A stretch of DNA of 64,000 nucleotides. It comes from an uncultured Schlesneria sp. GTDB taxonomy: Bacteria > Planctomycetota > Planctomycetia > Planctomycetales > Planctomycetaceae. Position numbers and translations under genes: made by a program. The notes under the pieces were generated by a model. That model worked only from the letters and a program-made list of their open reading frames with translations, did not search any database and was not told where the DNA came from. The stretch covers positions 1 through 64,000 of the forward strand of contig CAIQIR010000149.1 in the NCBI GenBank assembly GCA_903871875.1, read 5' to 3'. Below, piece after piece: positions 5,995 to 60,669 of this stretch (within the stretch, counting starts at the first letter, position 1; every line of letters begins with the position of its first letter).

Positions 5995-6834
5995 TCAGTC
6001 TTTCCACCAGTATCTGACGATGCACCAGAGAGCCTGAAATCCATCTTTCATTCCGATATGCTTACCTTCCTGGTAGGTACGACCATGGTAGCTGATTGCC
6101 ATCTCGTACACGCGAAGTCGGCGGCGGGCAATTTTGGCCGTCAATTCCGGCTCAATTCCGAAACGGTTCTGTTTCAGCGTCGGCCAGATATCTGCCAAGG
6201 CTCCGCGAGTGAAGACCTTATAGCACGTCTCCATATCTGTCAGGTTCAAATTCGTGAACCCGTTGGAAAGCAGGGTCAGAACTTTATTACCAATGGAATG
6301 CCAGAAGTAGAGCACCCGGTGCTCTTGATCGCCCAGGAAACGGCTTCCGTAAACAACATCGGCCGCCCCCTCAATGATCGGACGCAAGAGTCGTGAATAT
6401 TCGGACGGGTTGTATTCGAGATCGGCATCCTGAATGACAATCGCATCGCCTTTGGCTTTGGAAAAGCCGGTACGAACGGCCGCGCCTTTGCCTTTATTTA
6501 CTTCGTGATAGGTGACACTAATCACATTCAATGGATCGGGATTCGCAATTGCCTCGGCTTCTAACTGCCGCAAGATGTCGCGAGTATTGTCTTTACTGCA
6601 ATCTTCAACCAGCACCAGCTCTTTACGAATCGGAACAGCCCGCACCCGATCGATCAGTATTCGTAAGGTCCGCTCTTCATTATAGATCGGAATGACGACC
6701 GACAACAAAAAATCGTCGGGAATGGCATAGAGGCCCAATTGCCGACAGGCCGCTTCGCCTAATGTCGACCGCAGTGTTTCGAACCATGCCTCGGAGTAAG
6801 GTCGAACTTTGGCATCGAATTCCTCAGGCACCAT
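5995..6834 (-). CDS. Family 2 glycosyltransferase, dolichyl-phosphate-mannose-synthase-like
   Basis: This cytoplasmic GT-A glycosyltransferase has 279 residues. After about 45 unassigned residues comes the nucleotide-sugar domain: [14 protein letters not shown], a DCSKDNT loop, [10 protein letters not shown], and the metal-binding DADLEYNP motif. The [10 protein letters not shown] and [16 protein letters not shown] segments are typical of the DPM1/DPG-synthase branch, which transfers a sugar to polyprenyl phosphate. No C-terminal membrane segments are evident, so it is of the soluble or monotopic type. The ATG at 6834 is followed on the same strand by ftsH. The glycan it serves is not indicated by neighbours. 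Confidence 0.9.
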
Positions 6835-7204
6835 GCGGACTCCACCTGTCTATCTGCGAACAAAGTTCACGGGAAAAACTCCGCTCGCGGTCATGAATCA
6901 AGATTTCTTGACAGTTCGTTCCCGCCTTCCACCCCTTCGCTGCCATTCGCCAAACCGTGGGCGACGGTTTGGCAAAACATCGTCTCTGCCGCCACGTGAC
7001 CCCAATGCTAAGGAGGGAACGTCGCGAAGACCGAACCATTGTTGTACATTCTCGTCACGTTTCTGTCATCTGAGTTTGAACAGGCCTGAAATGAATTCAA
7101 CAGCCTGCCGCGGTTCCGGCCATCCGTAACGGCCACTGACCGCCGTGCAGGCCCGTTCGACTCGGGGACCGGACTTCGCATGATCGTTTTCGATTGAGGC
7201 CGCC
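6835..7204. promoter_or_regulatory. Divergent intergenic region, GT2 / DUF4432
   Basis: This 370-base space separates divergent genes and should hold promoters for both, but I cannot assign -35/-10 elements confidently. It contains a strong hairpin at 6949-6973, within the possible GT2 leader. Confidence 0.4.
6949..6973. repeat. Intergenic hairpin, 10-bp stem
   Basis: GCCAAACCGT (6949-6958) pairs exactly with ACGGTTTGGC (6964-6973) around GGGCG. There is no following T-tract on plus (AAAACATCG follows). It is similar in style to the hairpins near 3800 and 5937. Confidence 0.65.
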
Positions 7205-8380
7205 ATGACGATTCAAACATTGGTTCTCACCGACGCCGATTCCGGCGTGCATCTCGATCACGGCGAACTTCGGCCGAACAGTCTCTTGGATCTGAACGGG
7301 TCTTCGAATTGGTCGATTCGCTGGCGGACGCTGCACGGCGGCGTGTCGGAAGGTGTCGACGTTGTGGAAATCGACAATGGCCATTTGTCGCTTTCCATCC
7401 TGCCTACCCGGGGCATGGGAATCTGGAAGGGCCGCTACCACGACCTGCCACTGGAATGGAAATCGCCCGTCGAACGGCCGGTCCATCCGATGTTCGTCAA
7501 TCAACTCGATCGTGGCGGAATTGGATGGCTGCATGGGTTTAACGAACTGCTTTGTCGCTGCGGCTTGGCATTTCTGGGTCCCCCAGGAACTGACCAAGGG
7601 GAACAGCTGACACTGCACGGTCGCATTGCCAACCTTCCGGCGCATCGCGTGGAAGTTCGCGTCGATACCTCCGGCCCGGGATCGCTGGAGGTGATGGGAA
7701 TTGTCGATGAATGTTCGATGTTTGGACCACGCTGGCGAATGACGTCCACCTTCCGGATGGAAGCCGGATCAAACCGGTGTTCCATCGTGGATGAAATCAC
7801 CAATCTGGGCGGTCGGCCTGCAGAATTATCACTGCTATATCACATCAACATCGGCCGCCCGTTTCTCGAACCCTATGCGTCCTACTCCGTTCCCAGTATC
7901 GAAGTCGCGCCACGCGACTCACGGGCGGCGGAAGGCCTCGAAACTTACTCGGTTTATGGTGCCCCCGTGGCGGGGTTTGCCGAACAGGCCTATTTTCACA
8001 CTCCGCTCGGTGGCGCCGACGGATGGTCGACGGCATTGTTAGCGAATGCCGGCGGCCATGCGGGGTTTGCCGTTCATTTTCAAACTCGTCAATTGCCCGC
8101 GTTTACGGTCTGGAAAAACACTGTGGCCGAAGCCGATGGGTACGTTACGGGCTTGGAACCGGGCAACGTCTTTCCCAATTTCCGGGGGTACGAACGACAA
8201 CAAGGTCGTTTGCCTTCGATTCAGCCCGGGCACTCGTACAAAAGCGAATTGGCTCTGGAAGTCGCCGATACGCTCGAAGCCGTACGACTGATTCAGGATC
8301 GAATTCATCGATTGCAGGGAACGACGTCGCCGGTGATCCATCAATGGCCGATTGCTCGATTGTCACCGGCGGGGCAATAG
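7205..8380 (+). CDS. DUF4432 family protein, aldose-1-epimerase-like fold
   Basis: This protein of 391 residues resembles DUF4432, a branch of the galactose-mutarotase-like beta-sandwich superfamily. Visible landmarks are LSILPTRGMGIWKG near residue 62, HGFNELLCRCGLAFLGPPG near 113, HGRIANLPAHRVEV, and YHINIGRPFLEPYA in the second half. Family members are predicted to bind or epimerise sugars; no reaction has been assigned with confidence. No signal peptide is visible, so it is probably cytoplasmic. Its last 18 bases overlap the 3' end of the convergent GT4 gene. Confidence 0.85.
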   Translation: MTIQTLVLTDADSGVHLDHGELRPNSLLDLNGSSNWSIRWRTLHGGVSEGVDVVEIDNGHLSLSILPTRGMGIWKGRYHDLPLEWKSPVERPVHPMFVNQLDRGGIGWLHGFNELLCRCGLAFLGPPGTDQGEQLTLHGRIANLPAHRVEVRVDTSGPGSLEVMGIVDECSMFGPRWRMTSTFRMEAGSNRCSIVDEITNLGGRPAELSLLYHINIGRPFLEPYASYSVPSIEVAPRDSRAAEGLETYSVYGAPVAGFAEQAYFHTPLGGADGWSTALLANAGGHAGFAVHFQTRQLPAFTVWKNTVAEADGYVTGLEPGNVFPNFRGYERQQGRLPSIQPGHSYKSELALEVADTLEAVRLIQDRIHRLQGTTSPVIHQWPIARLSPAGQ

Positions 8381-9910: not shown

Positions 9911-10528
9911 ATGGTGGAACCGACGACACGTCCGAGTTTGATGCTGCGATTACGCGAGGCGCGTGATCAGCAGGCTTGGCGTGAGTTCGTTTCCATCTAT
10001 GAACCACTCCTCTTGCGATTGATGCGGCAACGCGGTTTGCAAGAGGCAGATGCTCGCGATGTCACTCAACAGGTCATCATCGCCGTGACTCAAGCGGTTG
10101 ATCGATGGGAACCGGATGGGAAGGAGGCTTCCTTTCGGCGATGGCTGTTTGCGATCGCTCGAACGCTGGCGCTGAAGTTTGTTCAGCGCGGCCGAGCACC
10201 GCACATTGCCGCGGGTCGCGGAACGGGCGGGACCGACATGCTGCAAATACTCCACGGCCTTCCCGAACCGGAACGTCGTACTTCAACGGAATTCGATGAC
10301 GAATATCGCACGGAAGTCTTTCGCCTGACGGCGCAACGGATTCGTGGCGAGTTTCGTGACACGACCTGGCAGGCATTCTGGAGGACGTGCGTCTTGAATG
10401 AACCGATTGCCGATGTGGCGGATTATTTGGGAATGTCGGCAGGAAGCGTCTATGTGGCTCGCAGTCGGGTGATCGGTCGCTTGCGGCAGTCCGTGGAAGA
10501 GTTCGAGGCGACAAATGAAACCGTGTAA
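9911..10528 (+). CDS. ECF-type RNA polymerase sigma factor
   Basis: This protein of about 205 residues has sigma region 2 (EFVSIYEPLLLRLMRQRGLQEADARDVTQQV, then FRRWLFAIARTLALKF) and region 4 near the end (FWRTCVLNEPIADVADYLGMSAGSVYVARSRVIGRLR), with no regions 1 or 3. This is the planctomycete-expanded ECF architecture. I start at ATG 9911, which has GGGGAG about 8 bases upstream, rather than GTG 9902. Its 3' end overlaps the kinase gene by 14 bases, so the two are translationally coupled. Sigma factors next to Ser/Thr kinases form recognised ECF groups in which the kinase may control the sigma factor. That role is inferred from context only. Confidence 0.92.
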   Translation: MVEPTTRPSLMLRLREARDQQAWREFVSIYEPLLLRLMRQRGLQEADARDVTQQVIIAVTQAVDRWEPDGKEASFRRWLFAIARTLALKFVQRGRAPHIAAGRGTGGTDMLQILHGLPEPERRTSTEFDDEYRTEVFRLTAQRIRGEFRDTTWQAFWRTCVLNEPIADVADYLGMSAGSVYVARSRVIGRLRQSVEEFEATNETV

Positions 10529-12110
10529 CAACAGCCACCGCGGGCAATTGCAACGATTGCTCAATGAAGGCTTGCCAGAGGCCGTCGAGAGCGACGTTGC
10601 CGATCACGTGGCTGCATGTCCGGCATGCCAGCGGGAACTCGAGTCGCTGGCGGCCGCTCAAAACTGGTGGACGGAAGCGAGTCAACGGCTAAGCAACAAT
10701 GCGGCGGACGTGGGCTCGTTGCACATGGGTGCCATCGATCGAAATGCAGCGGGGCAGATCAAACCGCTGACAGATTGGACATCCGAAGACGAGCCATTGA
10801 GAAAAAACGCTCAGTCACTGGGTGGATCGAATGCGCCGAGCGACCTGTTCGACGATGTCTATGCCACCGATTTCGCCGTCGATTTTCTCGAACCGAGCGA
10901 CGATCCCTCGGTACTCGGGCGATTGGGTGAGTATGAAATCGTTGAGGTGATCGGGCGGGGCGGCATGGGGATCGTTCTGAAGGGCTTTCAAAAGGAACTC
11001 CATCGGTTCGTGGCCGTCAAAGTCTTGTCACCGCACTTGTCGACGAGCGGAGCCGCACGCCGCCGATTCGCTCGTGAAGCTCAAGCCACTGCGGCCGTGG
11101 TGAATCCCCACGTCATGGCCATTCATTCGGTGCACGCCAATTCCAAGTTGCCGTATCTGGTGATGCCATTCGTCGCGTGTGAATCGCTGCAACAGCGACT
11201 TGACCGTCAGGGACCGCTGGACTTGAAAGACGTATTGAGGATTGGCACGCAAGCGGCGATCGGCCTGGCTGCCGCTCATGCGCAGGGACTGGTCCACCGC
11301 GATGTGAAACCGGCCAATATCTTGTTGGAAACGAATGTCGACCGCGTGATGTTGACTGATTTCGGCCTGGCCCGTGCTGTGGACGATGCGACGTTGACGC
11401 GAACGGGTGTGATTGCCGGGACGCCGCAGTATATGTCGCCCGAACAAGCGAACGGAGACGCGGTCGATCACCGTTCCGACTTGTTCAGTTTAGGAAGCGT
11501 GCTCTACGCGATGTGTACGGCTCGCCCGCCGTTTCGCGCGGAGACAACATTCGGAGTGCTGCGGCGAATTCGCGAGACCGATCCCCGGCCCATCCGCGAG
11601 ATCAATCCCGACATCCCCGCTTGGCTCGAACAGATCACTTTCACACTGTTAGCGAAGAATCCGGAAAAACGCCTTTCCACAGCAACCGAAGTTGCGGCAT
11701 TGATGGAGCAATGCCTTGCGCATGTGCAGCAACCGACGACGGTGCCGTTGCCTGTCACAGCGACATGCGCTCGTCCGGCCATCGAGATTCGCCATTCCAT
11801 TTCCGCCCGGAATCTGCCGGCGAGATCGTATTGGGCGTTGCTCGTTGTTGCCGTCGTGGTCGTGATGGGAGCGTTGATGCGGTGGCCTCGCACGCAGCCG
11901 GAATCCGGCGAAATACGATCGCCCACATCCATGGGAACAACCAACGGCGTGGAAGCTGTTGGCAAATCAATTCCGGTGACGGACACGCTCGACCCCACGT
12001 TTGAATGGGATCAAACACAACTCGAACTTAACGGGGTCGATCGCACGCTGAAACAGTTGGAAATGAACGTGTTGTCAGAAATGGACGACGAAGACAAATC
12101 CGGTCGTTAA
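10515..12110 (+). CDS. Membrane Ser/Thr protein kinase with zinc-finger-like N-terminus
   Basis: This is a kinase of 531 residues. Near residues 27-40 is an anti-sigma-like HVAACPACQREL segment (H-x3-C-x2-C), which may bind zinc and touch the partner sigma factor. The Hanks-type kinase domain starts near 138 (YEIVEVIGRGGMG), with the VAVKVL lysine, HRDVKPANILL near 261, DFGLA, and GTPQYMSPEQ. One membrane helix lies at about 438-455 (YWALLVVAVVVVMGALMRW), leaving a short extracytoplasmic tail of about 75 residues. The gene starts inside the end of the sigma-factor gene. The anti-sigma/kinase link is inferred from domain order and coupling. Confidence 0.93.
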   Translation: MKPCNNSHRGQLQRLLNEGLPEAVESDVADHVAACPACQRELESLAAAQNWWTEASQRLSNNAADVGSLHMGAIDRNAAGQIKPLTDWTSEDEPLRKNAQSLGGSNAPSDLFDDVYATDFAVDFLEPSDDPSVLGRLGEYEIVEVIGRGGMGIVLKGFQKELHRFVAVKVLSPHLSTSGAARRRFAREAQATAAVVNPHVMAIHSVHANSKLPYLVMPFVACESLQQRLDRQGPLDLKDVLRIGTQAAIGLAAAHAQGLVHRDVKPANILLETNVDRVMLTDFGLARAVDDATLTRTGVIAGTPQYMSPEQANGDAVDHRSDLFSLGSVLYAMCTARPPFRAETTFGVLRRIRETDPRPIREINPDIPAWLEQITFTLLAKNPEKRLSTATEVAALMEQCLAHVQQPTTVPLPVTATCARPAIEIRHSISARNLPARSYWALLVVAVVVVMGALMRWPRTQPESGEIRSPTSMGTTNGVEAVGKSIPVTDTLDPTFEWDQTQLELNGVDRTLKQLEMNVLSEMDDEDKSGR

Positions 12111-12147
12111 CAAAAAAATGCTCAATCATTCCATTGGGAGAATGGCG

Positions 12148-52102: not shown

Positions 52103-54076
52103 ATGGCCGACGTTCAGTCACATTCCGCCAAGGCCCAAACCGCCAGCGGACCGCTACAGGGTCCGCACTGGTCGCCGTTACAGGCACTCGATGCGCTGGA
52201 ATTGGGGCGCCATACTCAGGATTCATTGGAGGAATTGCTGGGAGAAGTGACCGTCTTCCCCATTCCAATGACAATGCGCGCGGAAATTTTGTCATCAGGC
52301 CTGAACGTCGCCTTGCAACGTTGGCCGAAAATCTCCGTTGAACCACTCAATATGCCCAAATCTCCTGGGCTAATGCCAACGTGGAAACCAACTCGACAGA
52401 AGATCACCACCTTCGGGTTGCAGTTTCCCGAGGGAGCGTCCCTGATCGCCAAACAAGACGCGGACGCCAAGAAGGATCAGGCCGCGAATGCCCCGCCGTC
52501 CTCCGCCGCCCCGCCCATCGAAATCTTGCCGGACTACGAACCGCCGACAGTCGCCTCGTTGATCGATGGCCTTAACGAAGAACCGAAGAAAAAACAGGTC
52601 ACACGCATCAAACCACCAGACGATGCGCTGGCCATCGAAGATCGACTGTTTTACCTGCTGCAGCCCCCGCTCCAATCATGGCTGGCTGGGCAGGAATTGA
52701 TCATGCCCTTCGAACCATTCCCGTATCAGTACGAGGGAATCGGTTGGCTGTTTTCTAAATCGTCAGCTCTCTTGGCGGACGAAATGGGGCTGGGCAAGAC
52801 GATGCAAACCATCACAGCGGTTCGGCTGCTTGTCCGTAGCGGACAAGTGCGTCGTGTCTTGCTGGTGTGTCCGAAGCCCTTGCTTCCCAACTGGCAGCGC
52901 GAATTTAGCACGTGGGCCGAAGAACTTCCCTTTGTGGTCGTTGAAGGAGATGGTGAACGTCGAAAACTGACGTGGACCATGCCCGGAGTTCCTGTCCTGA
53001 TCGCCAACTATGAATCGTTAGTTCGCGACTTCGCGGCGTTTGGTGAGGGCGAATTCCCCAAGTTCGATCTGATCATTCTGGATGAAGCCCAGCGAATCAA
53101 AAACCGAACGTCGCGTACGGCCGTGACCGCCCGCGCCCTTCCCCGCCGTCGCAGTTGGGCCTTAACCGGGACACCCATCGAGAATCGACCGGAAGAACTG
53201 GGAGCCCTCTACGAATTCCTCGAAGTCGTTCCTCCGAATGCCACCCCGGACTTGCGACAACTGCAATCATTGGCCAAGCAGTTCATTCTACGGCGAACCA
53301 AAAATCTGGTGATGAAAGATATGCCACCGCGACTCGATCGCGATGCCTATCTCGAATTATTGCCGGCTCAACAATCCGCCTATGATATGGCCGAAAAAGA
53401 GGGGGTGATCCAACTCAATGAGTTGGGCGACTCGATTTCGGTCCAGCATGTCTTCGAACTGGTACTTCGTCTCAAGCAAATCACCAACTTTGACCCACTG
53501 ACAGGTGAAAGCGCCAAACTGGATCGACTGGAAGCGGACATGGAAGAAATCGCGGCCAGTGGTGGCAAGGCGATTCTTTTCAGTCAATGGACCAAAGTCA
53601 TCGACTGGCTCGCAAAACCGATGGCCAAATATGGCGCACTCGTCTATCACGGTGGCGTTCCGACAAAACAACGCGAACCGATCCTTGCCAGATTCAAAGA
53701 AGATCCCGACGCTCATATCCTGCTGATGAGCTACGGCACCGGCGCCGTCGGACTGAATCTGCAGTTTGCCGGTTATGTGTTTTTGTTCGATCGTTGGTGG
53801 AATCCTGCCATCGAGGATCAGGCGATCAACCGTGCCCATCGGATCGGCTGCAAGAGCCAGGTCATCGTCACGCGATTCATCTCGAAAGATACGATCGAAG
53901 AGCGAATCGACAGAGTCCTCACAGAAAAACGGGAACTGTTCGCGGCGATTCTCGGCGATGGAGACGACACGAATGTCTCCCTGAGTATGAACGCGGCAGA
54001 AATCTTCGGGCTGTTCGATCTGAAAGCACGCCACGGCAAGGGCACTCGCGCCATCGGACCAAAACCGGCTGCCTAG
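52103..54076 (+). CDS. SNF2-family DNA-dependent ATPase/helicase-like protein
   Basis: This SF2 translocase has about 657 residues. Residues 1-190 are unassigned, with an Ala/Pro/Lys-rich patch. The ATPase begins with a Q-like motif [15 protein letters not shown] and Walker [13 protein letters not shown] near 225. [10 protein letters not shown] near 327 is the DEAQ box, followed by [21 protein letters not shown]. Helicase-C includes [46 protein letters not shown] and [11 protein letters not shown]. It is HepA/RapA-like in general form but lacks visible RapA-specific domains. Its role may be chromatin- or polymerase-associated remodelling. The ATG at 52103 is preceded by AAGGA. Confidence 0.93.
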
Positions 54077-54273
54077 CGATTTCTGTCGCAACCTGATCTT
54101 GGTTTTGTGCCACAACTTCGCAGTCTTCGCGGAAGCGGCGCAATTCTACTCTCTATGTCAACGAGATGCGCACCGCTTGATCAAAAACGGTCAAGCAGTG
54201 GCCACTTCGGCGATCACCGTTTTCCTTTGCATTAAGCAGTCGTCCTGGTCTGCACTGAGGTCGGCCATCGCTC

Positions 54274-54749
54274 TTATTTGGGATCGCCCGTTTTCGATTC
54301 AAATTGAGCTCGAAGTGCCAAATTGGTTTCGAGCACATTCACCAGATCGACACCGACCAGGCCACACAAGTGGCTTCCGTGTGCTAACGCAAAATGCCTT
54401 CGATTTGTTGACGCACTTTGCTCACCTCAGTCGGCGTGATCTCGGCCCATTTTGCGGCCACACGATCGAATTGATACTGCGAGTTTTTCAGTGTGATGTG
54501 CGGATCCAAACCAGATGCCGAAGCCATCACCAGATCCGTAGCGACTGGCTCGAGGTTAGCGTCAACATGGTCCTGCCACCAGATGTCAAAGACGATCGAT
54601 TGGATGTCGCTACCGATATTGACGGGTTCTATTTTCTTTTCAGTGGATCTCGCCAAGTGTTGGCCACATTGAGGCTCCGATCAGCAAACATGCCGTAAGC
54701 CGTACTAACCACTGGTGAACCAGATTTTCCAGTTTTTGAAGGTTTACAT
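54274..54749 (-). pseudogene. kdpC: Degraded kdpC (K+-transporting ATPase subunit C)
   Basis: On the minus strand one frame (from about 54656 to 54384) reads DLVMASASGLDPHITL and QYQFDRVAAKWAEITP, characteristic of KdpC, then stops. In another frame the KdpC ending LVGVDLVNVLETNLALR continues immediately and reaches a stop at 54274. Upstream, a third frame encodes a hydrophobic N-terminal segment (WLVRLTACLLIGASMW), and the ATG at 54749 is followed directly by TAA. At least two frame changes and an internal loss separate the pieces, and the total of about 158 codons is below the usual 190-200. kdpA and kdpB are not present upstream. The copy cannot make normal KdpC. Confidence 0.82.
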
Positions 54750-55316
54750 GGGTACTCCTGTCACCACAAGAAGGTGCGACTCAGTTTGTTTCCAACGAAA
54801 CATTTCAATGGCCGAATGGCAAAGCCCCTACCGAATTGACGCGGGGTGACATAACTCATTGGCGAACAACCACAAACCAATTGTGAACGCGCAAATCAGC
54901 CACAGACCGCAGATTGCACTTCGCCTGACTAATCGTGCAAATTGCAATTAAAAGCCCCTGCAGCCCTGTGCTCGAAACGATCGAGAGAATCAAGAAACCG
55001 GCTCGAACACAGGGCATTCGGAACAGGAACGACCGAGTTAAAGTGTTCTGGCATGCAGAATGCCCGATTCCTGGTAACGTCAACTCCCGTCGGGAAATTG
55101 ACCTGTCCATAAGTGATCGGCTTTGAAGCCATCTCGGACATTGGGGTATGCTTTGAACTGACGACCATCAGGTCGGTCTCGCGAAGCAGCCAAGATTCGA
55201 TCGAGTGCGAATGAAATCAGGACGAGTGCGGAATTGAACTCCAACTCGTTTCAACTCGCCGCTGGCTCAAGTTCGGTTACCACGGCACTTTGCTGCCGTC
55301 GAGGAGAAGATGCCCG
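54750..55316. other. Region between decayed kdpC and the Kdp-type regulator
   Basis: This region of about 570 bases has no convincing gene or clear kdpB remnant. It contains a possible sigma54 promoter at 55049-55063, followed by the leader of the response-regulator gene. Confidence 0.5.
55049..55063 (+). promoter_or_regulatory. Possible sigma54 promoter (GG-N10-GC)
   Basis: TGGCATGCAGAATGC matches 9 of 11 fixed positions of the TGGCACG-N4-TTGC consensus, with GG and GC 10 bases apart. It lies about 250 bases before the NtrC-type regulator gene. The same dyad (GGCAT-GCAGA-ATGCC) reads as a weaker GG-N10-GC toward kdpC. Confidence 0.35.
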
Positions 55317-56651
55317 GTGAATATCCTGCTGATTGATGACGATCCAAACCTGCGTAAATCGATCCGGCTCGCGCTGGAAACGATGAAACATCAAGTGACG
55401 GAGGCGCGTGACGGCACGCAAGCACAAGAACTCCTGGCCCACGGCCTGTACGACATCGCATTTCTCGATCTGCGACTGGGCCAGGAAAAAGGTATGGACA
55501 TCTTGTTGCAGCTTTTACGCTTGGCACCAGGCCTGGCTGTCGTCGTGATTACCGCCTATGCCACCATCGATATTGCGGTCGAAGCGATGCGGCGTGGTGC
55601 TGTCGATTTCTTGCCCAAGCCGTTTACCCCTGACGAAATCCGGATCGCATTAGATCGCGTCACTCGCCTGCGGCGGTTGCAGTCCCACGTCGAAGACCTG
55701 GAAGAACGAGTCCGCACGGTCGTCCCTGAAGTTGATTTAGAGACCCAAGACCAAACGATGCGCCACGCTTTGGACATCGCATTCCGCGCGGCGCCGACAC
55801 TAGCCACCATTCTCTTACGCGGAGAGAGTGGGACCGGTAAAGGAGTTCTCGCCCGGGCTATTCACGCTCGCAGTCAGAGGGCCGCCGAACCATTTGTCAC
55901 CATCCATTGTCCAAGCCTTTCCGCCGAACTGCTCGAAAGCGAATTATTCGGTCACGTCCGCGGAGCCTTTACCGGTGCGGTTCAAGATACGTTTGGAAAG
56001 GTTAGTGCGGCCGAAGGTGGCACACTGTTCCTCGACGAGATTGGCGACTTGCCTTCGGCACTGCAACCAAAACTACTGCGACTGCTGCAGGACAAACAGT
56101 ACGAACGTGTGGGAGAAACTCGCACGCGTGCCTCTGACGTCCGCATCCTGGCAGCAACGAATCGTGATTTGCTAGCCGCCGTGGCGGCGGGCACGTTCCG
56201 CGAAGATCTACTCTATCGATTGAACATGTTCGAAATCGTGCTGCCACCTCTGCGACAACGACAGAGTGACTTGGAATCGCTCGTCGATCACCTGGTGCGA
56301 TTCTTTGCTCGACAAAACGGGAAGACGGTTTCCGGTTTCACGACGGAAGCAAAGACAGCGCTGTTGAGATATCCCTGGCCGGGAAATGTTCGCGAATTGC
56401 GGAATGCCATCGAACGCGGCGTGATCTTGGCATCGGAATCAGCGGTGGGCCTGGCGGATTTGCCTGCTCAAATTGGCGAAGCGTTTCCCCCTGTTTCCAT
56501 GCAACTCGGTGGCGCCGTCACATTGGAACAGTTGGAGGCCGAACATATCCGACGGGTACTGAGCAAGACGCCCGTTCTGGAAGATGCGGCAGCAATATTG
56601 GGCATCGATACCAGCACGCTGTATCGGAAACGAAAACGATACGGTTTGTAA
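55317..56651 (+). CDS. NtrC-family sigma54-dependent response regulator
   Basis: This protein of about 444 residues starts at GTG 55317 (GAGGAGA about 9 bases upstream). The receiver has LLIDDDPN, phospho-acceptor FLDLRLGQ, and LPKPF. The AAA+ domain has GESGTGKGV, the sigma54-contact loop GAFTGAV, LFLDEIGDLP and RFFARQNGK. The Fis-type helix-turn-helix ends the protein (LEDAAAILGIDTSTLYRKRKRYGL). It is followed 56 bases later by a histidine kinase and then a KdpD-like sensor, so the three probably form a signalling operon. Use of an NtrC-type regulator in place of the OmpR-type KdpE is inferred from the KdpD neighbour. Confidence 0.94.
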   Translation: MNILLIDDDPNLRKSIRLALETMKHQVTEARDGTQAQELLAHGLYDIAFLDLRLGQEKGMDILLQLLRLAPGLAVVVITAYATIDIAVEAMRRGAVDFLPKPFTPDEIRIALDRVTRLRRLQSHVEDLEERVRTVVPEVDLETQDQTMRHALDIAFRAAPTLATILLRGESGTGKGVLARAIHARSQRAAEPFVTIHCPSLSAELLESELFGHVRGAFTGAVQDTFGKVSAAEGGTLFLDEIGDLPSALQPKLLRLLQDKQYERVGETRTRASDVRILAATNRDLLAAVAAGTFREDLLYRLNMFEIVLPPLRQRQSDLESLVDHLVRFFARQNGKTVSGFTTEAKTALLRYPWPGNVRELRNAIERGVILASESAVGLADLPAQIGEAFPPVSMQLGGAVTLEQLEAEHIRRVLSKTPVLEDAAAILGIDTSTLYRKRKRYGL

Positions 56652-56707
56652 GCCGTAACACGAACGGCCGTCACTCCTGCCACGAACTACGGACAAGAAT
56701 CCCCTTC

Positions 56708-58669
56708 ATGAACATGCCGATCACTCTGCGACAACGGATTCTGCTGACGCTGCTTCCCCTGCTGATCCTGTTGTGCATTCTGGGTAGCGCGGGCGTACTG
56801 CTGCTGCGACAACTGGGCGGCAGTATCGATGTCATCCTGCGCGAGAACTACCACAGCGTGATCGCGATGCAGGATCTGAAAGAAGCCTTGGAACGAATCG
56901 ATTCCTCGTTCCAATTCATATTGGTCGCCCAAGGGCTACAGAACGACGACGAACGAGACGCTTTAACGCAGAATGCGGTCAAACAATTCGATGCCAACTG
57001 GGAAAACTATCAACATGCATTGGCAACCGAGCAAGCGAACGTGACGATTCATCCGACAGAAGATCAACTGGTCGATCGTTTGACCGAACTCACACAAAGC
57101 TATCGTCAGCAGGGAAAAAGCTTCTTTCAACACGCGTCGGCCAGAAGTCTGAAGCATCAAGACTACTATGGCAAAGACGGGCTCTACGACAAGTTCCTGC
57201 TCATCAAACAACATGCCGACGATATCCTGCAACTGAATCAGCAGGAGATGAAACAGGCCAGCCAAGCCGCCAGCCAGTCGGCAACGATGTCACTCATCTG
57301 GCTAAGTGTCGGATCCGCCGTCGCCGTGTTTCTCGCCGGACTTTCCGCCTGGCATACGATTCGTTCCACGTTACGGCCAATCCAGGCTGTCACCCAGGCG
57401 GCACTGGGAATCAGCGCTGGCGATTTGGATCAAGTCGTTCCCGTGTTTTCACGCGATGAACTGGGCCAATTGGCCCAGGCATTCAACGTGATGGCTCACC
57501 ATCTGCGGGATTACCGTCATTCACAATCGACTCACCTGCTTCGCGCGCAACGCACCAGCCAGGCGGCAATCGACTCCTTTCCCGACGCAGTGCTGATGAT
57601 CGATTCCGTCGGCCGGATCGAAATGGCGAACCCTGCCGCACGACGGCTACTGGAACTCGCCCCACGAGAAAGAGATCTTCCGCCGTCTGGATTGTGGCAG
57701 CCACCGGAACAGTTGCGAGCACCGCTGAACGAAGCACTGCTGGGACAGCGAGACTATCTTCCCGAAGGATTCGACCAAATCATCGTCTTGGGCAAAGATG
57801 GGGCGGAACGCGCCCTGTTGCCTCGCATCCTCACGATCCGTGATCCCCAGGGTCAGGCACTGGGTGCGGCCGTACTGCTACAGGATGTGACGCGTCTACG
57901 TCTGCTCGATCAGATGAAAGGCGATCTTGTCGCCACCGCCAGTCATGAGCTGAAAACGCCGCTCACCAGCGTCCGACTGGCCGTCCACCTGCTGCTGGAA
58001 GAATCGACAGGACCACTCTCGCCAAAACAAACCGAACTACTGCTCGATGCGCGAGAGAACAGCGAACGACTGCTGGGAATGATCAATAACCTGCTCGACC
58101 TCGCCCGTCTGGAACAAGGCTGGAGGCAGTTGGATGTCAGCGCCACATCGCCCATGGCGCTTTTACGCGAAGCGGCGGACAGCATTCAGGTCCGGGCACA
58201 CGATAAGAAAGTCGACATCCAGATGAATGTGACGGATGGGCTGCCGCCCGTCGCCGCAGATAAAGGGCGGATTGGGCACGCCCTGCGAAATCTTCTCGAT
58301 AACGCGCTCACCTACACAGACGCAGGGGGACGAATTTCCTTGGCCGCCAAACGGAGTGGAGAATTCATCGAGTTTTCGGTCACTGACACAGGTCTCGGCA
58401 TTGCCCCCGAATATGTACCCCGAATCTTCGACAAGTTCTTTCGAGTGCCTGGTCAAAGCCGAGGCACGGGTACCGGCTTGGGATTGGCGATCGTTCATGA
58501 AATCGTGGTCGGACACGGCGGCACAATCGATTGCGAGAGCCAGCCCGGGGTCGGAACGACGTTTCACATCCGGATGCCGATTGCCGGCCCTGATATCGCC
58601 CCTCGTGATCATCAGGACGCCGCTATCGAATTGCCCGAATCGCTGAGTGGAGGACTGCGCCGTGAGTAA
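56708..58669 (+). CDS. Membrane sensor histidine kinase
   Basis: This protein has 653 residues. Helix 1 (ILLTLLPLLILLCILGSAGVLLL) and helix 2 (MSLIWLSVGSAVAVFLAGLSA, near 196-216) bound a helical extracytoplasmic bundle. HAMP (STLRPIQAVTQAALGISAGDLDQVV) and a PAS domain (AAIDSFPDAVLMIDSVGRIE) follow. HisKA contains ATASHELKTPLTSVRLAV. The ATPase shows NLLDNALTYTDAGG, DTGLGIAPEYVPRIFDKF and GTGTGLGLAIVHEIV. It lies between the sigma54 regulator and the KdpD-like gene; its stop overlaps the next start by 8 bases. It is likely the phosphodonor of the regulator upstream. Confidence 0.95.
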   Translation: MNMPITLRQRILLTLLPLLILLCILGSAGVLLLRQLGGSIDVILRENYHSVIAMQDLKEALERIDSSFQFILVAQGLQNDDERDALTQNAVKQFDANWENYQHALATEQANVTIHPTEDQLVDRLTELTQSYRQQGKSFFQHASARSLKHQDYYGKDGLYDKFLLIKQHADDILQLNQQEMKQASQAASQSATMSLIWLSVGSAVAVFLAGLSAWHTIRSTLRPIQAVTQAALGISAGDLDQVVPVFSRDELGQLAQAFNVMAHHLRDYRHSQSTHLLRAQRTSQAAIDSFPDAVLMIDSVGRIEMANPAARRLLELAPRERDLPPSGLWQPPEQLRAPLNEALLGQRDYLPEGFDQIIVLGKDGAERALLPRILTIRDPQGQALGAAVLLQDVTRLRLLDQMKGDLVATASHELKTPLTSVRLAVHLLLEESTGPLSPKQTELLLDARENSERLLGMINNLLDLARLEQGWRQLDVSATSPMALLREAADSIQVRAHDKKVDIQMNVTDGLPPVAADKGRIGHALRNLLDNALTYTDAGGRISLAAKRSGEFIEFSVTDTGLGIAPEYVPRIFDKFFRVPGQSRGTGTGLGLAIVHEIVVGHGGTIDCESQPGVGTTFHIRMPIAGPDIAPRDHQDAAIELPESLSGGLRRE

Positions 58670-59786
58670 CGACACAGGCTCAACCACGCCCGAACAATTC
58701 CTGACGTTGATTCGTCAACAGCGACGGGGCCGGCTGAAAATTTATCTCGGCTTCGCCGCCGGCGTCGGCAAAACCTATGAAATGCTGCAAGAAAGTCAGC
58801 GTCTGAAGGCGCGCGGCGTTGACGTGGTGATTGGTGTGGTCGAAACGCATGGCCGTGCCGATACCGCAGCCCAGATTCTCCAATTGGAGCAAGTCCCGCG
58901 TCGTAAAATTGAATATCGTGGCGTCGTCGTCGAAGAAATGGATCTGGACGCCATTCTGACCCGAAGCCCGGCGGTCGTACTCGTCGACGAATTGGCGCAC
59001 ACGAACGCCCCTGGCAGCCGTAACTCAAAACGTTATCAGGATGTCGAGGAATTGTTGCGAGCGGGGATCAATGTCATTAGCACGCTCAACATCCAACACC
59101 TGGAAAGCCTGTATGACATGGTCGAAAAGGCGACCGGAGTAAAGGTCAAAGAACGGATTCCCGACTACATCGTGGGGCTGGCCGATCAATTGATTAACGT
59201 GGATTTGTCGGCGGAAGATCTGCGCGAGCGGCTTTCGGCCGGAAAGATCTATCCTGCGGAACGAATCGATCGAGCATTGGAAAGCTTCTTCACTCAGGCC
59301 AACTTGACCCGGTTACGCGAATTCGCCCTGCACGAGATCGCCCATCGACTGGACCAACGACTGACTGACACAGAAACGACTCAACCCAGCACAAATCGCA
59401 TCATGGTTTGCCTGAGCTCGCGCGGGCCCAATGTCGATCACCTGGTCCGTAAAACGGCCCGCATGGCCGATCGATTGAGCGCGCCGTGGTACGCCGTCTA
59501 CATTCAAACCCCAAAGGAAGATGTGACCCGCATCCCTGCCGCACTGCAGCGTAAAATCAGCAATAACTTGGCGCTCGTCCAGCAACTCGGCGGAACTCAA
59601 ATGACGTTTAAAGGAGCCGACGTGGTCAGCACGATGGCAGCCTTCGCTAAAGAATATAGTATTTCGCACATTGTGATCGGTCGGTCGCGGCAACCATGGT
59701 ACCGACGCTGGTTCGGTCAATCCGTACAGTAACGGCTGATTCAAGCGGTGCCGGAAGTCGATGTCCTGGTCGCCGGAAATCCCTGA
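58662..59786 (+). pseudogene. kdpD: Stand-alone KdpD sensor (KdpD + Usp domains) interrupted by a late stop
   Basis: The KdpD N-terminal domain comprises residues 1 to about 225 (GFAAGVGKTYEMLQ with Walker A, VVETHGRADT, VVLVDELAHTNAPGS, INVISTLNIQHLESLYD). A Usp-like domain follows (RIMVCLSSRGPNVDHLV ... ISHIVIGRSRQPWYRRWFG). There is no histidine kinase part; that is encoded by the separate gene upstream. A TAA at 59730-59732 ends the frame after 356 codons, but the same frame continues with RLIQAVPEVDVLVAGNP to a stop at 59784-59786, matching how KdpD Usp domains normally end. A single base change, for example GAA to TAA, would explain it. GTG 58662 has GGAGG 8 bases upstream. The shortened protein may be partly functional. 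Confidence 0.8.
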
Positions 59787-59888: not shown

Positions 59889-60239
59889 TCAAACGATTCT
59901 TGGTGATTGCTTCACGAACCGCCCCGATTTGGGCCCACGGTTAATTTGAGCGGCCCTTTCAAACAACCGTCGACGGATTTCGAATCCTCGCGAGACTTCT
60001 CGGACAAACCCGACGGCCATACCGATGGTGAATCCGATGGCCGCATAGTATCCGGCCATCGAAAGCAATTCCGAATGCGATAGCTGATTACGAGCCTGCG
60101 CGCCGAAACCACCAAGCACCGTCCCGTACAACATACCGCAAACCGCACACAGTACCGCATCAGCGAACGTGACACGAACGACGTGATTTCCTAACACGAT
60201 CAACTTGCGGCACACCCGATTCGACAAAAAAACATTCAT
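59889..60239 (-). CDS. Small membrane protein, unknown function
   Basis: This predicted membrane protein of 116 residues begins MNVFLSNRVCRKLIVLG. Hydrophobic segments lie at about 23-43 (VVRVTFADAVLCAVCGMLYGTVLGGFG) and 59-78 (LLSMAGYYAAIGFTIGMAVGFV), followed by a basic C-terminal tail. The ribosome site GGGAGGAG 5 bases before the ATG supports the gene. I recognise no family. It converges with the kdpD-like gene and is not obviously part of its operon. Confidence 0.7.
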   Translation of the reverse strand: MNVFLSNRVCRKLIVLGNHVVRVTFADAVLCAVCGMLYGTVLGGFGAQARNQLSHSELLSMAGYYAAIGFTIGMAVGFVREVSRGFEIRRRLFERAAQINRGPKSGRFVKQSPRIV

Positions 60240-60669
60240 GGCATCTCCTCCCGTCCGAGACAATTGCGTGTGCCTAAAACCTTGCTTTTTTATTAGCAAA
60301 CACCGGACCGAGAAGCCCTCACATGCCCTAAACGGTTTCTGGATCGAACGATAGACAATTGACTGGATTTCGAAGGAGTGAAGGGACACTGCAAGTTGCC
60401 TGAGCGTTCGTGCAAAATGCCCTCAGTTTTGGGAGAATTTCCCCGCCTTTCTGACAGCACAACAAGCAGCAGACTCCCCCTTGTTGGCGTGTGATTCGAC
60501 CCGACGCGATTCCATCTGATCGATCAACGAAATTCTTAGAATCAACAAGTAACCCATTGTCGACACGGCAGACCTAGGTGTATTCTGTCCATCATCACAG
60601 ACGCATTTTGGTACACCACAACCCGATTTCGGTCTCAATACAGATGATGTAAGTTTTCGGAGACTCCTC
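60240..60669. promoter_or_regulatory. Divergent intergenic region, small membrane protein / kinase
   Basis: This 430-base region has no convincing gene. It must carry the promoters of the two flanking divergent genes. I see GGAGA 6 bases before the kinase ATG and GGGAGGAG before the membrane-protein ATG, but no confident -35/-10 pair. Confidence 0.4.

Follow-up and report, generated by a model that had tools for sequence, protein, structure and literature searches.

An apparently pumpless Kdp regulator operon in an uncultured Schlesneria sp.: the remainder of a second potassium system?

What becomes of a set of regulators when the potassium pump that they stood beside is lost? This question is raised by a Kdp locus of an uncultured Schlesneria sp. 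(Planctomycetota), found between positions 54,274 and 59,786 of the window, i.e., of the first 64 kb of contig C149 (CAIQIR010000149.1) in a draft genome of 7.6 Mb and 178 contigs. A first-pass annotation of this DNA had described a Kdp system in decay, with a broken kdpC, an interrupted kdpD sensor gene and no kdpA or kdpB. Here, two kinds of Kdp system are distinguished: type A, which consists of kdpABC with a full-length KdpD and a KdpE-like regulator, and type B, in which the pump is divergent from a response regulator (RR), a histidine kinase (HK) and a short KdpD. The locus would be the remainder of a type B system, redundant beside a type A system of the same genome; its pump would have been lost and its three-gene regulator operon kept by selection after that loss, acting in trans. 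We lean slightly towards this account of a lost redundant pump and a retained operon that perhaps acts in trans. The divergent layout and the remaining type A set can be read directly from the genomes, and it is the redundancy, the later selective retention and the action in trans that we infer. Throughout, G- and L-numbers are working labels of the compared genomes and loci, C-numbers are contigs, and G000 is the window genome.

What remains of the pump

The only part of a pump recognizable at the locus is a relic of kdpC on the minus strand. The Pfam KdpC model matches 54414-54569 (-) with an E-value of 5.4e-11, and tblastn with the 347-residue KdpC of the congener G012 (E-values computed against three small subjects) aligns residues 224-315 to 54372-54647 (-) at 60% identity and E 8e-34, through a stop. 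Two pieces are discerned: a first one at 54372..54650 (-), which corresponds to residues 222-314 of G012 KdpC (59%) and has one TAG inside, and a second one at 54292..54369 (-), which holds the C-terminal end in a different frame (tblastn, residues 317-342, 54%, E 4e-4). The KdpC fragments in different minus frames reported by the first-pass annotation are thus borne out and, with two frames, one stop and most of the gene missing, kdpC is here a lost-frame pseudogene. Residues 1-223 of the query find no match in 54001-55400, even at E 10, and neither kdpA nor kdpB of the congener G007 finds one in the same interval at E 1. An N-terminal kdpC piece suspected by eye near 54650-54770 was likewise without a match on search. 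The locus therefore lacks the open kdpA, kdpB and kdpC of a functional pump, the kdpC relic being all that is left. Between the relic and the regulators lies a collapsed stretch (54651..55316, no strand assigned), whose equivalent in G007 holds kdpA, kdpB and the start of kdpC and in which no pump remnant was found. By coordinate arithmetic, the distance from the RR start to the kdpC end is about 7.7 kb in G007, about 6.0 kb in L117 and about 1.0 kb in the window, so that roughly 5 to 7 kb, comprising kdpA, kdpB and the greater part of kdpC, have been lost.

The regulators follow on the plus strand. The RR (55317..56651) is an NtrC-type sigma-54 response regulator with the Pfam domains Response_reg, Sigma54_activat and HTH_8 and with GAFTGA present; its GTG start at 55317 was picked by eye, the open reading frame listing opening the frame at 55290. 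Because it carries Sigma54_activat and a Fis-type HTH, it is not the OmpR-type KdpE of a KdpDE two-component system. The HK (56708..58669) contains, according to the domain search, a 4HB sensor, HAMP, PAS, HisKA and HATPase, with its H, N and G boxes present. The short KdpD, composed of a KdpD and a Usp domain, occupies 58647..59732 (Pfam KdpD, E 3.9e-94) and is ended by a TAA; a likelier start chosen by eye is the GTG at 58662, which is preceded by GGAGGA and gives an 8-base overlap with the HK gene.

A second Kdp system and its traces across the genus

Absence of kdpA and kdpB, although correct for the locus, does not extend to the genome. The only KdpA of the genome is encoded complete at the end of C51, and its final residues are repeated at the start of C161; since the two contig ends share an overlap of exactly 141 bases, this kdpA is taken as a single gene. 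On C161 it is followed by kdpB, kdpC and the gene of a full-length KdpD. The genome also encodes, on C74, a KdpE-like regulator that shares 52% identity with the G012 query, which is as close as the type A-linked ones of G002, G003 and G012 come. This type A set rules out a loss of Kdp from the cell, which the earlier account of decay had implied, and it is the very kind of intact copy that the first-pass annotation had named as evidence against itself. The KdpE-like gene is unlinked from type A kdp in G000:C74 and G005:C32 and linked to it in G002:C138, G003:C1 and G012:C96.

The system to which the locus belonged is seen whole in G007, where an intact kdpA-B-C is divergent from the same RR, HK and short KdpD as in the window; this comparison with a sister genome, which the first-pass annotation had proposed, confirms the pump loss at the window locus. 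The divergent layout is also found in nine planctomycete loci (G047, G053, L114, L117, L119, L128, L134, L141 and L153), of which L134 has a kdpC that runs off the contig and L141 a frame break in kdpB. Within the genus, type A KdpA is present in 11 of 15 genomes and type B KdpA only in G007, which is without type A; the other three have no full KdpA (none in G008 and G014, a weak partial match in G009). Type B traces occur in four of the 15, namely G007, which has the only whole one, G012, G005 and the window genome. G012 retains kdpB from residue 189 onward, kdpC, and KdpD from residue 203 onward, a pattern expected from one deletion. G005 keeps all three regulators although the type B pump is absent from its genome, and no convincing Kdp remnants are found upstream of its operon.

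These distributions bear on the strongest rival, ordinary recent decay, in which the deletion of the spare pump is recent and the operon has no function any more, although too little time has passed for this to be visible beyond a first sign, the KdpD stop. That KdpD, KdpC and KdpB searches reveal no type B trace in 11 of the 15 genus genomes fits such decay, while the persistence of the three regulators without a pump in G005 speaks against it. They bear as well on a gain of the locus by horizontal transfer, possibly at a stage when its pump no longer worked. The regulator tree joins the window with G005 (100/100), whereas the rpoB tree (15 rows; G022, G046 and G050 left out) joins it with G007 (93/96), and the genes flanking the operon in the window do not stand beside it in the congeners fetched, with the exception of one small gene. 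Both separate losses from an old two-system state and transfer would fit this conflict, and differential loss accounts for the trees equally well. Moreover, the kdpC relic sits at the divergent place known from relatives, the G+C content of the locus is similar to that of the remainder of the 14 kb profiled, and the small gene past KdpD is common to the window and G005, all of which makes transfer improbable in our view. This small gene is a membrane-protein-like frame at 59889-60389 (-) of the window, found in the same place, among the compared loci, only in G005 (46%).

Several further observations were made on type B loci. In the G012 locus L050, a 698-residue open frame at 10049-12145 (-) consists of antisense KdpD running into kdpB, and 6735-7529 (-), close to the type B relic, encodes a KdpE-like regulator of the OmpR type, another one being located beside the type A genes on C96. 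KdpC proteins of about 310-350 residues are encoded in L050 (8984-10027, -), G007, L117, L119, L128, L141 and L153; they contain a central stretch of about 100-130 residues that is absent from type A KdpC and from the KdpC of L114. In L201, which belongs to the genome of L120, a type B KdpA is split between two frames and includes a TAG, whereas the regulator operon in this genome is open; this may be one more instance of pump decay, or a draft error.

The short KdpD and its stop codon

The KdpD frame ends with TAA at 59730-59732, after which the same frame reads RLIQAVPEVDVLVAGNP and TGA, up to 59786. These 17 codons and TGA (59733..59786, +) still recognizably resemble the C-termini of relatives. 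When the KdpD ends of 88 other loci were compared (L191 was unreadable and L132 off the contig), all of the 86 readable ones proved to be at least 17 residues longer than the window protein at this end; 83 of the 86 are distinct, as L043/L113, L048/L149 and L049/L148 are the same loci. The position of the TAA is unique to the window among the relatives read, and the residue just before it also differs from theirs. Both the uniqueness of the stop and the good preservation of the sequence behind it are what recent decay would produce. They could also reflect an assembly or sequencing error, in which case the regulator operon would be fully intact and the pump alone lost: a lone stop in a constrained gene whose tail is still like that of relatives, in a draft of this many contigs, agrees with such an error. 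There is, however, no direct sign of one, and the residue before the stop deviates from the relatives as well; we hold an error to be unlikely, if slightly less so than transfer.

The lesion is smaller than first supposed. The TAA with recognizable KdpD sequence after it stands as the first-pass annotation described it, but what it interrupts is a short KdpD and Usp protein, 17 sense codons before its old end, and not a sensor kinase cut in half; this latter possibility is ruled out because the protein is naturally short, as in relatives, and the lesion is at its extreme end. The chain has a Usp domain and no histidine kinase domain, Pfam finding KdpD only. A profile of 38 homologues matches PDB 2r8r (KdpD N-terminus) and 7ji4 (KdpD Usp), and the fold of the AlphaFold model of the G007 protein also matches solved KdpD N-terminal and KdpD Usp structures. 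In this model (mean predicted local distance difference test, pLDDT, 82; predicted template modelling score, pTM, 0.58) the lost end corresponds to a helix (362-369) and a strand (374-378). The window KdpD is thus naturally short, with a published KdpD and Usp architecture, and the stop is predicted to remove its last helix and strand, cutting off the final part of the Usp domain. The Walker A (G-x5-GKT) and Walker B (DE) motifs are present upstream of the stop, which would be a late lesion of mild effect, leaving the ATP-binding kinase domain untouched. Since the isolated E. coli KdpD domain (1-230) still phosphorylates KdpB (PMC11018627), the truncated window KdpD may retain kinase activity.

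The closest known counterpart is the short KdpD/Usp atypical serine kinase with a separate HK (PMC11018627; D. geothermalis KdpD). The window shares with it the KdpD G-x5-GKT and DE motifs, the Usp domain, the absence of a histidine kinase domain from KdpD, the HK on a separate chain and a diadenylate cyclase gene in the genome. It differs in having no linked KdpFABC, in the loss of the last Usp helix and strand, and in its HK, which has HAMP and PAS and no GAF at E 0.001. In addition, the cyclic di-AMP (c-di-AMP)-binding motif described for the KdpD Usp domain, (A/G/C)XSXSX2N(Y/F) (PMC8214093), is absent: the window reads CLSSRGPNV, in which, by eye, the second S and the final Y/F are replaced. 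The split kdp regulators described for Deinococcus radiodurans and for cyanobacteria (PMC5716572) are similar in that the KdpD N-terminal part (KdpD-N) is apart from the sensor kinase and the regulator, and in D. radiodurans the kinase and regulator operon is opposite the pump operon (PMC5716572); in the window, by contrast, the regulator is of the NtrC type (sigma-54), KdpD-N is grouped with the regulators and the pump has been lost. With the classical KdpDE system of E. coli (PMC2714519), the window operon has the KdpD and Usp domains in common and lacks the fused kinase and the OmpR-type KdpE, both of which are found instead in the type A copy (C161 and C74). Among the literature matches listed, consulted by title and abstract opening, none described a KdpD operon without a pump or a sigma-54 regulator of kdp; PMC11841059 names KdpD only in a reference.

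Constraint after the loss and possible targets in trans

Was the operon under selection once its pump had gone? In a purpose-written codon model with six taxa, omega on the window branch is 0.042 for RR, 0.085 for HK and 0.077 for KdpD, none of which differs from background (twice the log-likelihood difference, 2dL, 0.7, 0.0 and 0.52, respectively). On the G005 branch the RR is even below background (omega 0.024, 2dL 6.38), a further point against recent decay. The three regulators thus do not display the raised omega of a pseudogene operon; of the relaxed selection after pump loss proposed by the first-pass annotation, the lost pump and the true kdpC relic hold, and the relaxation itself finds no reflection in the regulators. 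Synonymous change is near saturation (each branch has a neutral length of about 2 to 5), and most of this signal of constraint may consequently predate the pump loss. In a model with a neutral last stretch, this stretch can take up less than 5% of the branch, whether RR, HK or the three genes joined are fitted.

The kdpC relic, dated on 87 codons, provides the comparison. If total divergence is fixed at 3 or 4, values close to the 3.3-4.2 obtained from the regulators, the relic has its best neutral time at 0.45 and a time of zero is rejected (2dlnL 17.7 and 9.5, respectively), the lower limits being about 0.23 (divergence 3) and about 0.13 (divergence 4). The same fit assigns zero neutral time to the intact KdpC of G007 and L114, and the regulators are allowed at most about 0.17 and about 0.09, HK being the loosest (fit without the G005 row). 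At these divergences the relic predates whatever release the regulators may have had, narrowly so for HK, which disfavors recent decay. That the regulators outlived the pump is therefore supported, conditional on the fixed divergence and with a narrow gap.

Several results weigh against a retained operon. The dating depends on 87 codons and a fixed divergence: if divergence is left free, zero neutral time is accepted for the relic (2dlnL 0.24), as recent decay would have it, and so are times up to about 0.7, with earlier branches reaching an implausible 12; at divergence 5, the lower limit drops to about 0.04 and overlaps the regulators. The KdpC of G012, where kdpA is also gone, receives a neutral time of 0.1 or zero, zero being accepted both times, so that the method may miss real losses, or the G012 loss is young. 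KdpD alone permits a neutral fraction of 30%, the largest value tried, and its stop is itself a sign of weakening. Recent decay accordingly keeps a considerable share of our belief, although we think it rather less probable than not, and retention of the operon after loss of a redundant pump remains the account that we prefer.

Retention would imply work for the regulators elsewhere, with HK and RR acting on other sigma-54 promoters. Upstream of type B kdp, in the pump direction, sigma-54-like sites scoring at least 10 of 11 occur in four of ten divergent loci, whereas 500 shuffles that kept single-base content only gave 0.06 on average and never more than 1; G007 has no site at this threshold upstream, and the best one in the collapsed window stretch (54651-55316) scores 8 of 11, near chance. 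The 19 type A upstreams contain no site of 10 or more and one of 9 (L062, with only 469 bases). Type A is thus no evident target of the RR, and as a sigma-54 target it is unsupported. Both this and the failure to find any target in trans, in analyses that included no search aimed at Trk, Ktr or KimA behind sigma-54 sites, count against retention too. KdpD could act differently. The TGES site is present in type A KdpB, as it is in the type B KdpB of G007, and the KdpD domain possibly acts on the former as a serine kinase, an activity predicted by analogy. Control of KdpFABC is, in section 8 of PMC11018627, the apparent sole role of KdpD versions without the kinase half.

Other genomes offer parallels. 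In a scan of the collection, 462 proteins were confirmed as relatives of the window KdpD and 80 of them were kept; RR, HK and pump stand together in 23 of these loci, and RR and HK with no pump in view in eight, including G005. Three of the eight (L112, L116 and L120) have less than 1 kb visible on the expected pump side, and the genomes of L124 and L125 carry a type-B-like KdpA on another contig. In L158 (2138-11656) two TrkA genes and a TrkH gene lie within the RR, HK and KdpD module. In L162 (6473-13726; Fibrobacteres) RR, HK and KdpD are followed by an amino-acid-permease-family protein, and L159 (2037-13832) contains counterparts of all four (identities of 82, 63, 67 and 90%) and, between HK and KdpD, also kdpABC; L162 hence looks like a loss of the pump with the regulator module retained, in parallel to the window. 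The permease is a neighbor and not a proven replacement of the pump, since L159 has both the permease and kdpABC. The KdpD of L158 and L162 carries a phosphotransferase system (PTS) EIIA domain, and no KdpA was found in either genome, the completeness of which is not stated. A bolder and rather doubtful extension is that RR, HK and short KdpD together form a potassium-control module that is portable, survives the loss of its pump and is put to use on new targets: in the window genome possibly the type A pump, through KdpD as a serine kinase in trans, and elsewhere Trk-type transporters or a neighboring permease.

In all, the locus represents a natural experiment, in a genus with two Kdp systems of which one pump has been lost in different ways and its regulator sometimes kept. 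Should the orphan operon still be in use, such potassium regulators would control more than the pump that adjoins them.

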